DNA of 22,025 nt from positions 1-22,025 of IMG/VR virus record IMGVR_UViG_3300047378_000025; one strand, given 5' to 3'. The stretch comes from a virus. A program made the translations under genes and the position numbers. Positions 1 through 19,752 of the stretch are shown piece by piece. The notes beneath the pieces are model-generated. The model was given only the letters and a program-made list of their open reading frames with translations. It was not told the origin of the DNA and did not search any database. Every line of letters begins with the position of its first letter. Positions within the stretch are counted from its first letter, which is position 1.

Positions 1-1302
1 AGAACCTGCAGCCGCCCAACCGCTAGATTTATAAACTTTTAATTCGTTAGCTGTTGTATCAAAATATAAGTCACCAACATTTAAACTTGATGTAGGTGCT
101 GAACTTGCAATTCTATATTGTTCTGCAAAGTTATTTACAGAGGCTAGGTTTGTAGCAACTGTATTTACGTTAGCAATAGAACCACCAACATTATTAATGT
201 TAGCGATTGCTCCACCAACATTATTAACATTAGTTATTGCTCCTGCAACTGCTGTAATATTTGAGTTAGCACCTGCTACTGTTGTAATGTTAGAATTATT
301 ACCTGCTACTGTTGTTACGTTAGCCGCAATGTTTTCTACTGCCGCTACGTCACTTGATATGTTTGCAACACTTGTAATATCACTATCAATACCTGCAACA
401 GTGTTTATGTTAGCTGAATTAGCATTAACTGCATTAATGTTTGTGCTATTTGAGTTAACAGCAGATACCGCACTTGATATTCCTGCTACTGAAGTTACGT
501 CTGTATTTATTCCCGCAACTGTTGTTACATTAGCATTGTTACCTGCTACTGTATTTACGTTAGTAATATTAGTTCCTACAGTATTAACATTAGCAATATT
601 GTTTGATACTGTGTCTATTTCTGAAGTTGTTTCTTGTAAATCTAAAGCCGCAGTTTCTATTTCTGAAACTGTTTCGTTTAAATCATTTGCTACTACAATT
701 ACTTTAGCAATATCTGTAGCAACTGTATTTACTGAAGCAATGTTTGTAGCTACTAAACCAATATCGGTAGCATCACTAGCTACTGCTGTTACATTAGATG
801 CAATACCTGCAACTGTAGTAACGTCAGAACTAATGCCTGATACTGTTGTAATATTTGGTAAGTTTGTAGATATAAATTGTTTGTTAACACCATCAGTATT
901 GTTTACTGGGTCTGCTACATTTGTAAGTCTTTTATTTTGTGTGTCCCATTGAAAATTTGTATTAGATAATTTAATTACATCACCTGCATCATCAATAGCT
1001 TCTTGCGACATAAAGAACGCTTGGTCACTATCTGTATCTAAATCACTCTCTGTAAGGACTGACCCAGAAGCATAGTCTACTAATTTAGTAGTCTGTGACG
1101 TTCTTCTTCTAATCTCAATAGCCGCATCTTGGGCAGGTGCAGAGTTAAAAGTAAGGGTAGTTCCTGCACTATTTAAGCTAAAAGCTGTAGTAGCTACTCC
1201 TGATAGAGTGACTGTAAGGTCACTTGTGGCTCTATAGCTAAAAGGTATAGAATAAGATGTTGTACTGTTATCGCCTGTATAACGTACAAAACTATTTGCC
1301 AT
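1..1302 (-). CDS. Tail fibre protein, T7 gp17-like N-terminus (partial, cut by window edge)
   Basis: This frame is open from an ATG at 1302 to the window edge, giving 434 residues with no stop, so the C-terminus is missing. An AAGGA lies 9 bases before the ATG. Residues 1-145, beginning MANSFVRYTGDN, match the T7 tail-fibre N-terminal domain that attaches the fibre to the tail. Residues 151-394 are ten-residue repeats of the form (V/I)-x-x-V-(A/G)-x-x-x-x-(N/D). Residues 402-430 (APTSSLNVGDLYFDTTANEL, then KVYKSSGW) resemble a short module common in marine phage fibres. The receptor-binding tip would be encoded beyond position 1. The gene lies next to the gp16-like gene, as gene 17 follows gene 16 in T7. 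The assignment is firm; the function of the repeats is inferred to be a trimeric shaft. Confidence 0.9.
   Translation of the reverse strand, partial: MANSFVRYTGDNSTTSYSIPFSYRATSDLTVTLSGVATTAFSLNSAGTTLTFNSAPAQDAAIEIRRRTSQTTKLVDYASGSVLTESDLDTDSDQAFFMSQEAIDDAGDVIKLSNTNFQWDTQNKRLTNVADPVNNTDGVNKQFISTNLPNITTVSGISSDVTTVAGIASNVTAVASDATDIGLVATNIASVNTVATDIAKVIVVANDLNETVSEIETAALDLQETTSEIDTVSNNIANVNTVGTNITNVNTVAGNNANVTTVAGINTDVTSVAGISSAVSAVNSNSTNINAVNANSANINTVAGIDSDITSVANISSDVAAVENIAANVTTVAGNNSNITTVAGANSNITAVAGAITNVNNVGGAIANINNVGGSIANVNTVATNLASVNNFAEQYRIASSAPTSSLNVGDLYFDTTANELKVYKSSGWAAAGS
121..618 (-). repeat. Main array of decapeptide repeats in the tail fibre (30-base period)
   Basis: Seventeen ten-residue units cover residues 229-394 of the fibre, the last being partial. 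A Val or Ile falls every ten residues (229, 239, 249 and so on to 389), with Val usual three residues later and Asn/Asp just before the next unit. The DNA is degenerate at synonymous positions, so the repeat is conserved at protein level more than base level. The regular hydrophobic spacing suggests a trimeric shaft. Confidence 0.85.
673..852 (-). repeat. Shorter decapeptide repeat array in the tail fibre, out of phase with the main array
   Basis: Six ten-residue units cover residues 151-210, with Val/Ile at 151, 161, 171, 181, 191 and 201. The following 18 residues (211-228, rich in Glu and Thr) break the pattern. The main array then restarts with its register shifted by eight residues, which points to an insertion or hinge in the shaft. 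Confidence 0.75.
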
Positions 1303-1335
1303 GTATGATTTTCCTTAATATTTGATTGGGTTTTA

Positions 1336-1354
1336 CTAAAAGTGTAAGTTTAGT
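1336..1354 (-). promoter_or_regulatory. Candidate phage RNA polymerase promoter before the tail fibre gene (phi17-like position)
   Basis: The minus strand reads ACTAAACTTACACTTTTAG in the 55-base gap between the gp16-like and fibre genes. The same 19 bases with one change occur right after nrdB (15819-15837). The CACTTTTAG end resembles the CACTATAG of T7/SP6-type promoters, and T7 has its phi17 promoter in the same place. The gap holds no other gene and no clear terminator. Promoter function is an inference. Confidence 0.5.
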
Positions 1355-12269: not shown

Positions 12270-12410
12270 AGTATTTTCTCCTGTTATGACGTTAGTTTAT
12301 AAAAGCCTCTTCAATAAGTTATTTAGTCAAGATTGTCCCTCGCAAGGGGTCAAGTTATTTGGCTAATTAAAGTTGGCAGTTGCCACGCATAAGCGTTGCA
12401 CAACTATTTT
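12270..12410 (-). promoter_or_regulatory. Non-coding leader before the capsid gene, with repeats and a small hairpin
   Basis: This 141-base gap has no credible gene. On the coding strand it holds, in order: an imperfect stem around GCAACGC-TTAT-GCGTGGC; then AAATAACTT, CTTGAC, a CCCT-TGCG-AGGG hairpin, CTTGAC again and AAATAACTT again; then TTTTATAAAC and the ribosome site AGGAG. The two copies each of AAATAACTT and CTTGAC flank the hairpin. T7 has promoter phi10 here. The 19-base motif seen elsewhere in the window is not present, and the sigma70-like elements (TTGACT, TATAAA) are too far apart to be convincing. Confidence 0.4.
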
Positions 12411-12650
12411 TTAGTTACAGTTCCACTTTCGTAAAGCTAATGCTTTTCTAGTGGGTTTTCCGTTTTTAGACATAGCTCCTTTTACTCCGCCCATTCTCGC
12501 ACAGAAACTCTTTTTTCTTCCTGCGGCTCTTGAACCTGCTTTAGGATTGCCTGTGACTGGAGCTTTTAAGTTATGTCCTTTACTCTTAAAGAAAGCCCTT
12601 CCTCTAGCATTTAAGCCACCAGAAGGACTTTGATGTTTTTTAGCAACCAT
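12411..12650 (-). CDS. Small basic protein of marine phages, unknown function
   Basis: The 79-residue product is rich in Lys, Arg, Gly and Ala. The pattern SPSGGLNARGRAFFKSKGHNL (21 residues from 8), then LKAPVTG, then KKSFCARMGGVKG and a C-terminal RKALALRKW, is a conserved small protein I associate with marine phages, usually annotated as hypothetical. Two cysteines (in FCARM and near the C-terminus) could bind a metal or be structural; this cannot be decided from sequence. Its ATG overlaps the stop of the preceding small gene as TAATG (12648-12652). It lies just before the capsid gene, so it is probably made with the head proteins. DNA binding is possible from its charge but is speculation. 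Confidence 0.75.
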   Translation of the reverse strand: MVAKKHQSPSGGLNARGRAFFKSKGHNLKAPVTGNPKAGSRAAGRKKSFCARMGGVKGAMSKNGKPTRKALALRKWNCN

Positions 12651-15635: not shown

Positions 15636-15818
15636 TTATTTATCCCTCTCTTTAAGTGTATTAATAAAATTAACTACGTCCCTTTGACCTGCTTTAAAAT
15701 AAATAGTTTTACTATCATCTTTTAAATCAGGTGACTTTTCAGGGTAAACTGTGTTCAATAATTTAATTAAATCATCTACTTTTTCAGGTAAGATTAAATC
15801 TTCCATTACGTTTTTCAT
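15636..15818 (-). CDS. Conserved-looking small protein (60 residues), unknown function
   Basis: The protein has a helical first half (EDLILPEKVDDLIKLLNTVY) and a second half containing KTIYFKAGQRDVVNFINTL. I do not recognise a named family. Two starts are possible, at 15818 and four codons later at 15806; neither has a good ribosome site. The first ATG is immediately downstream of the candidate promoter at 15819-15837, so a transcript starting there would be leaderless or nearly so. It lies between nrdB and the gp7.3-like gene and is the first gene of the proposed head transcription unit. There is no membrane segment and no cysteine. Confidence 0.68.
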   Translation of the reverse strand: MKNVMEDLILPEKVDDLIKLLNTVYPEKSPDLKDDSKTIYFKAGQRDVVNFINTLKERDK

Positions 15819-15837
15819 CTAAAAGTGTAAGGTTAGT
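15819..15837 (-). promoter_or_regulatory. Candidate phage RNA polymerase promoter after nrdB (phi6.5-like position)
   Basis: The minus strand reads ACTAACCTTACACTTTTAG. It differs by one base from the motif before the tail fibre gene (1336-1354). It overlaps the nrdB stop codon and ends just before the ATG of the 60-residue gene, so it sits at the boundary between replication and head genes. T7 places promoter phi6.5 at the comparable boundary. The CACT...AG core and the TAACC block resemble T3/SP6-type promoters. Confidence 0.5.
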
Positions 15838-18795: not shown

Positions 18796-19012
18796 CTTTT
18801 GTTTCTGTTACTGTGGGTTGTGCTTCTTTCTCAATAATAAAATCTATGTATTGTTTAGCTTTCTTTAAATCTTGTACGCCACCTTTAAATCTCCAACGAG
18901 AAATATACTTAACTACATTACCTTCGCAGTAAGACAGGTCATTCTTTGTGATGTAATCTATAGGTTCAATACCACCTTGATTGTAGTGCATTGGTTTTTT
19001 TATATCGTCCAT
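18788..19012 (-). CDS. DUF3310 family protein
   Basis: The 74-residue protein carries the DUF3310 pattern: KPMHYNQGGIEPIDYI (residues 6-21), then YCEGNVVKYISRWRFKGG (28-45) and DLKKAKQYIDFII (48-60). The family is widespread in phages, often near nucleotide metabolism or replication genes; its biochemical role is not settled. Here it lies between the exonuclease and nrdA genes and overlaps both, by 13 and 8 bases, which fits a link with nucleotide metabolism. A good ribosome site, GGAAGG, lies eight bases before the ATG within the exonuclease gene. The polar C-terminal tail (QPTVTETKDD) is probably disordered. Confidence 0.88.
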   Translation of the reverse strand: MDDIKKPMHYNQGGIEPIDYITKNDLSYCEGNVVKYISRWRFKGGVQDLKKAKQYIDFIIEKEAQPTVTETKDD

Positions 19013-19752
19013 AGTTTTACCTTCCCTGTTTTCTTATTGTATTCTCCATGTCTTAAAATGTGTGCGACCCTAGCTTGTTGTAGAGCTTCTTTTTGTGTGT
19101 AACCTTTTTCTTTGTAGATACCTTTGACTATCTTCCATAGGTCTAAAAGTGGAACATTAGTATATTTAAGAAGGAGCTTTTCTGCTGTCTTAATACCAAC
19201 ACCATCAATACCATCATAGCCATCTGTCTTGTCACCCATGATTGTCTGTATCATAAAGTTATAATTAGCTATCTTCTCTGGTATCTGTTCTACTGTCATA
19301 CCATCTTGTGAAAGATTGCATGGTATTGTTCGCATGTCTTTATCAATGCTAACTAATATTCTTTCTTCATCACTAGGTTCAGTTGCCATAATACCCATGA
19401 CATCATCTGCTTCTAGGTTAGCCCACATGACACCATTATGTTTTTCCATAATGTGTTCACGCATTGCATTTAAAACTATTGGCTTACGTTTTTCTTTACG
19501 ATTACTTTTGTATGTAGGAAGAACATCTTTTCTAAAATTATTCTTATCTGTAAGTGCTACAACATAGTCATCTGCTGATAACCCAGAACCTAAATCATCT
19601 ATCACTGCATCTAATTGTGAATTACAAGTAGGTAACTCTGCGTGTAATGTCCATAAGCCATCACCCCAGTTGATAGGTTGTTCATTGTTAGTTGCTATCT
19701 GGTAAGCAAGTATGTCACCATCAATTACTAATACTCTTTTCTTTTTATACAT
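19000..19752 (-). CDS. 5'-3' exonuclease, FEN/T7 gp6-like
   Basis: The 250-residue protein is a FEN-type nuclease. Metal-binding acidic residues are visible in order: Asp11 and Asp13 (VLVIDGDILAY), Glu114, Asp116 and Asp117 (NLEADDVMG), Asp136 and Asp138 (VSIDKDM), Asp174 and Asp177 (MGDKTDGYDG), followed by the helix-3-turn-helix DNA-binding motif GIDGVGIKTAEKLL (181-194). The basic arch region FRKDVLPTYKSNRKEKRKP (73-91) is also typical. In T7 the equivalent gp6 removes RNA primers, degrades host DNA and takes part in recombination. The ATG overlaps the stop of the preceding nuclease gene as TAATG (19750-19754). A weak copy of the promoter-like motif lies in its 3' part. Confidence 0.92.
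   Translation of the reverse strand: MYKKKRVLVIDGDILAYQIATNNEQPINWGDGLWTLHAELPTCNSQLDAVIDDLGSGLSADDYVVALTDKNNFRKDVLPTYKSNRKEKRKPIVLNAMREHIMEKHNGVMWANLEADDVMGIMATEPSDEERILVSIDKDMRTIPCNLSQDGMTVEQIPEKIANYNFMIQTIMGDKTDGYDGIDGVGIKTAEKLLLKYTNVPLLDLWKIVKGIYKEKGYTQKEALQQARVAHILRHGEYNKKTGKVKLWTI
19143..19161 (-). promoter_or_regulatory. Weaker copy of the promoter-like motif, inside the exonuclease gene
   Basis: The minus strand reads ACTAATGTTCCACTTTTAG, matching 16 of 19 bases of each of the two intergenic copies, including the whole CACTTTTAG end and the ACTAA start. It is within coding sequence, so chance and codon use could explain it. If active it would drive DUF3310, nrdA, the two tiny genes and nrdB. 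Confidence 0.25.

Follow-up and report, generated by a model that had tools for sequence, protein, structure and literature searches.

A 19-bp motif at module boundaries of HTVC019P-type Pelagibacter phages is very probably the promoter of their own T7-type RNA polymerase

We analysed a 22,025-nucleotide stretch of viral DNA (IMG/VR record IMGVR_UViG_3300047378_000025, referred to in its full length as the window) and conclude from sequence comparison that a 19-bp motif repeated in it very probably serves as promoter for a single-subunit T7-type RNA polymerase (RNAP) of the phage itself. The motif occupies orthologous gene junctions in related phages, and its bases covary with the RNAP specificity loop, which together support the promoter role first proposed from the window alone. 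Genome comparison identifies the window as minus-strand sequence of an HTVC019P-type Pelagibacter phage of the genus Pelagivirus (HTVC019P is classified in Autographiviridae, Pelagivirus). Jormungand and Ran cover 90% of the window at 91% identity, followed by HTVC304P, HTVC201P, HTVC022P, HTVC019P and others; the group I relatives encode a MarR-like regulator and an integrase. The record carrying the window spans just 22,025 bases and has no RNAP gene. Since it ends there, and since RNAP lies upstream of the DNA polymerase gene in relatives, we place the RNAP gene outside the window, and what we say of this phage's own polymerase is drawn from its relatives because the contig lacks one.

Copies of the motif in the window

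The first-pass annotation of the window had reported a repeated 19-mer on the coding strand. The repeat is real, with two copies that differ by one base on the minus (coding) strand (Table 1). Site 1 occupies an intergenic gap, which opens at the stop of the gene for internal virion protein D at 1358 and closes at the tail fibre ATG at 1302. Site 2 shares bases with the stop codon of nrdB (15835-15833) and runs right up to the following ORF, whose ATG is at 15818. The proposed correspondence of these positions to phi17 and phi6.5 holds on the T7 map. Site 3 is within the exonuclease ORF (19000-19752).

Table 1. Motif sites and associated features, in window coordinates
Feature	Coordinates	Strand	Remarks
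Site 1, putative late-class promoter before tail fibre gene	1354..1336	-	ACTAAACTTACACTTTTAG; T7 phi17 position
Site 2, putative late-class promoter after nrdB	15837..15819	-	ACTAACCTTACACTTTTAG; T7 phi6.5 position
Site 3, promoter-like copy in exonuclease gene	19161..19143	-	3 mismatches; function uncertain
Tail fibre gene	1..1302	-	ORF and homology to annotated tail fibres; cut by window end; downstream of putative promoter 1
Small ORF, first gene of structural module	15636..15818	-	ORF; equivalent of HTVC019P gp26
5' leader of tail fibre transcript (35 nt), predicted	1303..1337	-	From predicted +1 to ATG at 1302

It had also been argued that two such 19-mers are unlikely to arise by chance. 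For the window taken alone this is weak, since 24 of 100 dinucleotide shuffles contained one or more 19-mer pairs differing at no more than one base; sites 1 and 2 are the window's only such pair outside the repeats of the tail fibre gene. A chance expectation of 0.05 for the motif pattern is circular because the pattern was derived from its own matches. The significance of the motif comes from comparison with relatives.

The repeats of the tail fibre gene are near-identical coding repeats at window positions 149-733.

Sites at orthologous gene junctions of close relatives

A scanning matrix built from all three window sites had been suggested. Site 3 proved unfit for this use and was excluded because it is missing from six group I relatives (HTVC019P, Jormungand, HTVC022P, HTVC131P, HTVC021P and HTVC105P); the matrix was instead built from HTVC019P and Jormungand sites and scanned over whole genomes. 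High-scoring sites were identified in all seven group Ia genomes at four orthologous junctions, every one on the coding strand: the genome left end, RNAP/SSB, nrdB/next gene, and internal virion protein D/tail fibre. The further boundary copies and the conservation that the first-pass annotation had proposed to look for beyond the window are thus present in complete relatives, where the motif is both kept and seen to covary with the RNAP specificity loop. At every group I site the element is 19 bp long and ends in TT(A)G with a predicted start, and its location is at module boundaries on the coding strand (four junctions per group I genome).

Strict-pattern sites numbered 28 in the seven genomes, 27 at the four junctions, counting two in tandem at the S35C6 left end, and one in the exonuclease gene of S35C6, against none in 20 order-2 Markov simulations of those genomes. 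The left-end site of HTVC304P and HTVC201P is one base short of the strict pattern. An independent scan of 2.9 million IMG/VR viral contigs with the pattern ACTAAASTTACACTWTTAG returned 73 matches, 66 of which lay at two junctions (55 tail-fibre, 11 left-end). Wherever measured, the tail-fibre-junction matches were 34-35 nt from the tail fibre match, with one at 32 nt, and none of the 73 was inside a homologue of any HTVC022P gene. Chance or shared coding sequence could in principle produce repeats of this kind, given the frequency of such pairs in the window shuffles and the coding nature of the exonuclease copy, but the 28 matches against none simulated and the concentration of independent matches at two junctions make it an exceedingly improbable explanation, which is refuted for sites 1 and 2 and may hold for site 3.

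Two side observations concern these scans. Tandem left-end promoters occur 17 bp apart in S35C6 (L082:29309-29344) and about 150 bp apart in the near-complete genome G001. The seven remaining viral matches (contigs L037, L041, L045, L047, L052, L059 and L076) share a common ACTAAAGTTACACTTTTAGAGGCTACA and represent one unrelated sequence with no Pelagivirus genes nearby.

A search of bacterial and archaeal genomes totalling 257 Gb gave 9 exact motif matches compared with about 7-8 expected (a rough figure that assumes equal base frequencies), and none of the nine adjoins a homologue of an HTVC022P gene. These counts bear on whether the sites might be host sigma-70 promoters used by the SAR11 RNA polymerase, as their location upstream of genes would allow. 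However, no -35/-10 hexamer pair with 16-18 nt spacing was found on the coding strand at site 1 or site 2, the motif is not enriched in bacterial or archaeal genomes, and its bases covary with the phage RNAP loop. We consider a sigma-70 origin highly improbable and rejected it on the lack of a coding-strand match at either site and of enrichment in prokaryotic genomes.

Unlike in T7, no site was found before the capsid or scaffold genes in these phages, and in group I Pelagiviruses nothing matched the promoter immediately ahead of RNAP.

A structured leader of about 140 nt (window 12270-12412, minus strand) immediately precedes the capsid gene and is conserved in every relative examined, HTVC134P and HTVC119P among them. 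RNAalifold predicted 14 pairs, 6 of them with double compensatory changes, and the leader had no match in Rfam. It may be an element for control or processing of the capsid mRNA.

Variant motifs in divergent relatives

More divergent groups carry variants of the motif at the same junctions as the group Ia sites: AGTAAAGT(A/T)(T/G)C(A/C)CT(A/T)TTAG in group Ib (HTVC021P, HTVC105P), forms of TAAAGTNCCCNTWNTAGA in group II (Eistla, HTVC142P, HTVC168P, HTVC031P, HTVC109P) and RGNNCCCNNATTAGAA in group III (HTVC134P, Bylgja). Groups II and III have one extra site directly before RNAP (L085:10881, L089:4223, L090:5575), where a promoter would permit autoactivation, as proposed for LUZ100. In the more distant group IV (HTVC119P, HTVC200P) we detected no convincing promoter set and no repeated motif, only a single shared TTAGATACACATATAGATACA after RNAP.

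The distribution across groups also bears on whether the motif could be a site for some other phage protein, for example the MarR-like lysogeny regulator or the integrase. Group I relatives encode both of these proteins, and the LUZ100 study ties MarR to an RNAP promoter. Yet HTVC031P, HTVC142P, HTVC168P and Eistla keep the junction sites with neither MarR nor integrase annotated, and the motif is not consistently palindromic and tracks RNAP residues 748 and 758. A regulator or integrase site is accordingly very unlikely, and a MarR operator in particular was discarded because the motif persists in phages without an annotated MarR.

Three group II phages have an opposite-strand promoter-like match, GGT(A/T)CCCGTATAAGA, near the genome end (L085:7332, L086:38818, L087:39017), a possible leftward phage promoter. 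In roseophage CRP-125, GTTGCACCATAG is repeated on both sides of RNAP and at further gene junctions (L093:5917, 7541 and others); these repeats are probably that phage's own promoter set.

Covariation of the RNA polymerase with promoter bases

Reading the motif as a promoter of the phage RNAP calls attention to the polymerase itself, and a search for a T7-type RNAP gene with inspection of its specificity loop had been recommended. Such a gene is encoded in all relatives, the window fragment stopping short of it, and the loop residues do track the promoter bases. HTVC019P RNAP aligns with T7 RNAP over most of its length (E about 1e-122), and its specificity loop aligns with T7 residues 739-770 with a one-residue deletion at R756. 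In T7 RNAP, N748 contacts -10/-11, R756 contacts -9 and Q758 contacts -8 (PMC5937735).

We compiled 113 RNAP/promoter pairs, comprising 97 distinct RNAP loci from viral contigs and 16 isolates and genomes. Each RNAP was assigned the site that scored highest against a pooled matrix in the sequence following the RNAP stop codon; the matrix came from the same phage family, and the RNAP loop was not used in picking. Much of the resulting association among tips reflects shared ancestry, the tips not being independent and the independent switches only a handful. At T7 position 748, R/K goes with GT at -11/-10 (97/97), D/E with CC (9/9), C with CT plus C at -12 (5/5) and Q with CT (2/2), while at position 758, A goes with A at -8 (33/34), K with C (58/58), M with G (7/7) and Q with T or G (14/14). 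The promoter bases thus match the loop residues expected to contact them, 748 with -11/-10 and 758 with -8. These RNAPs lack a residue equivalent to T7 R756, and no similar signal links the loop to -9.

When all 774 variable RNAP columns were scanned blind, position 748 was the sole full predictor of -11/-10 (uncertainty coefficient 1.00; next 0.77) and 758 the best predictor of -8 (0.89). Changes were also counted on a tree from which the loop had been left out; the five columns best coinciding with -11/-10 changes all fell in T7 736-772, a region holding 30 of the 774 columns. The change from GT to CC was reconstructed three times, D/E748 being present in each such lineage and, in two of them, appearing on the identical branch. 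All five sites of G001 (E748) carry CC, and all four of G008 (Q748), also a near-complete genome, carry CT, from which it follows that whole promoter sets switch together. One or two specificity-loop changes, at 748 and 758, have probably re-specified the whole promoter set repeatedly, a switch of the T7-to-T3 type (acidic 748 with CC at -11/-10) being re-invented several times, in phages that would have 4-5 ATP-initiating promoters of two positional classes.

This natural covariation shows polymerase and whole promoter set changing together, a process so far approached via laboratory evolution of T7 (PMC6171733), and yields RNAP/promoter pairs from nature whose specificities are predicted to differ. 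We found no published promoter map or promoter statement for HTVC019P-type phages in the literature searched, and an earlier prediction may exist outside it; the motif supplies such a map and makes RNA-seq data from these phages interpretable.

Predicted start base and order of transcription

Start base, promoter strength and timing are predictions from comparison with other phages. The first-pass annotation had placed the start at the final G of the motif, whereas the register places +1 at the preceding A. T7 phi2.5, CACTATT-AGGG with an annotated start at the A, aligns gap-free with the pelagiphage core CACT(A/T)TTAG. This register, together with the T3/T7 contact code, predicts +1 at the A of TT-AG, and it is further supported because the pairings of -11/-10 with 748 and of -8 with 758 fit the T7 contacts only there. 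Start sites would be the A at 1337 for site 1 and the A at 15820 for site 2, the ATG of the small ORF downstream of site 2 being at predicted +3.

The term "late promoter" used in the first-pass annotation suits the nrdB and tail-fibre sites, but not the motif as a whole, since the left end and RNAP/SSB are also covered and the set is therefore not solely late. In groups Ia and Ib and in the E748 lineage, the base at -3 is usually A at the left end and at RNAP/SSB, and is T after nrdB and before the tail fibre gene. The exceptions are G008, whose early sites have T there, and the second of the two left-end sites in S35C6. RNA-seq of HTVC022P resolved three temporal clusters, each contiguous, in which RNAP is early and nrdAB middle (PMC12753301), so that the nrdB promoter would mark the middle-to-late border.

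By analogy with T7, host RNAP would first transcribe the early genes, including that of the phage RNAP. The latter would then bind the sites through its specificity loop, with 748 reading -11/-10 and 758 reading -8, melt the AT-rich -4 to -1 region and start at the A. Transcription from the left-end and RNAP/SSB sites would serve the early, middle and replication genes, and that from the other two junctions the virion genes.

The copy in the exonuclease gene

Site 3 encodes TNVPLLD. Among phages that keep the Pro, those of group I encode it by CCA, and the five of group II all use CCC, which makes up only 2-4% of Pro codons; in both groups the codon matches the group's promoter base at -6. This agreement, with the rare CCC codon, and the perfect core at the exonuclease site of S35C6 are what a real intragenic promoter similar to T7 phi4c might leave, a proposal compatible with the motif being a phage RNAP promoter. 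Against it stand the absence of the copy from the six group I relatives named above and the C at -8 of the window copy, where group Ia promoters have A. We regard the proposal as rather unlikely overall: certain phages may have a genuine promoter at site 3, and in the window it is doubtful as one.

Comparison with known promoter systems

The group Ia sites do not have the T7 promoter proper (TAATACGACTCACTATAG), their -12 to -8 bases being (A/C/T)(C/G)TTA compared with CGACT in T7. They resemble T7 phi2.5 in the CACTATTAG core, the predicted A start, the use of a single-subunit RNAP and, for the RNAP/SSB site, a position just upstream of the SSB gene, but differ from it at -17 to -8, where T7 has TAATACGACT and these phages A(C/G)TAAA(C/G)TTA. 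T7 has 17 annotated promoters, mostly with a G start, whereas Pelagivirus has 4-5, all apparently with an A start.

T3 RNAP has D at position 748 and nearly all annotated T3 promoters have CC at -11/-10, a combination of acidic residue and CC that recurs in those Pelagivirus lineages with D/E748. The window's closest relatives, in group Ia, differ in having R748 with G/C at -11 and T at -10, and in T3 the start base is G or, less often, A. The SP6 promoter has an ACACT core, A at -8, T at -10, and G at -9 and +1. The pelagiphage sites share the core and the bases at -8 and -10, and SP6 RNAP has R748 by alignment; the G at -9 and +1 and the shorter loop set SP6 apart, and the phages are only distantly related.

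LUZ100, a temperate T7-like Pseudomonas phage, uses a different motif, but is likewise a MarR/integrase phage with few phage-specific promoters at T7-like positions (PMC10134795). Its promoter upstream of RNAP is a feature shared with groups II and III, whereas group I has no match there.
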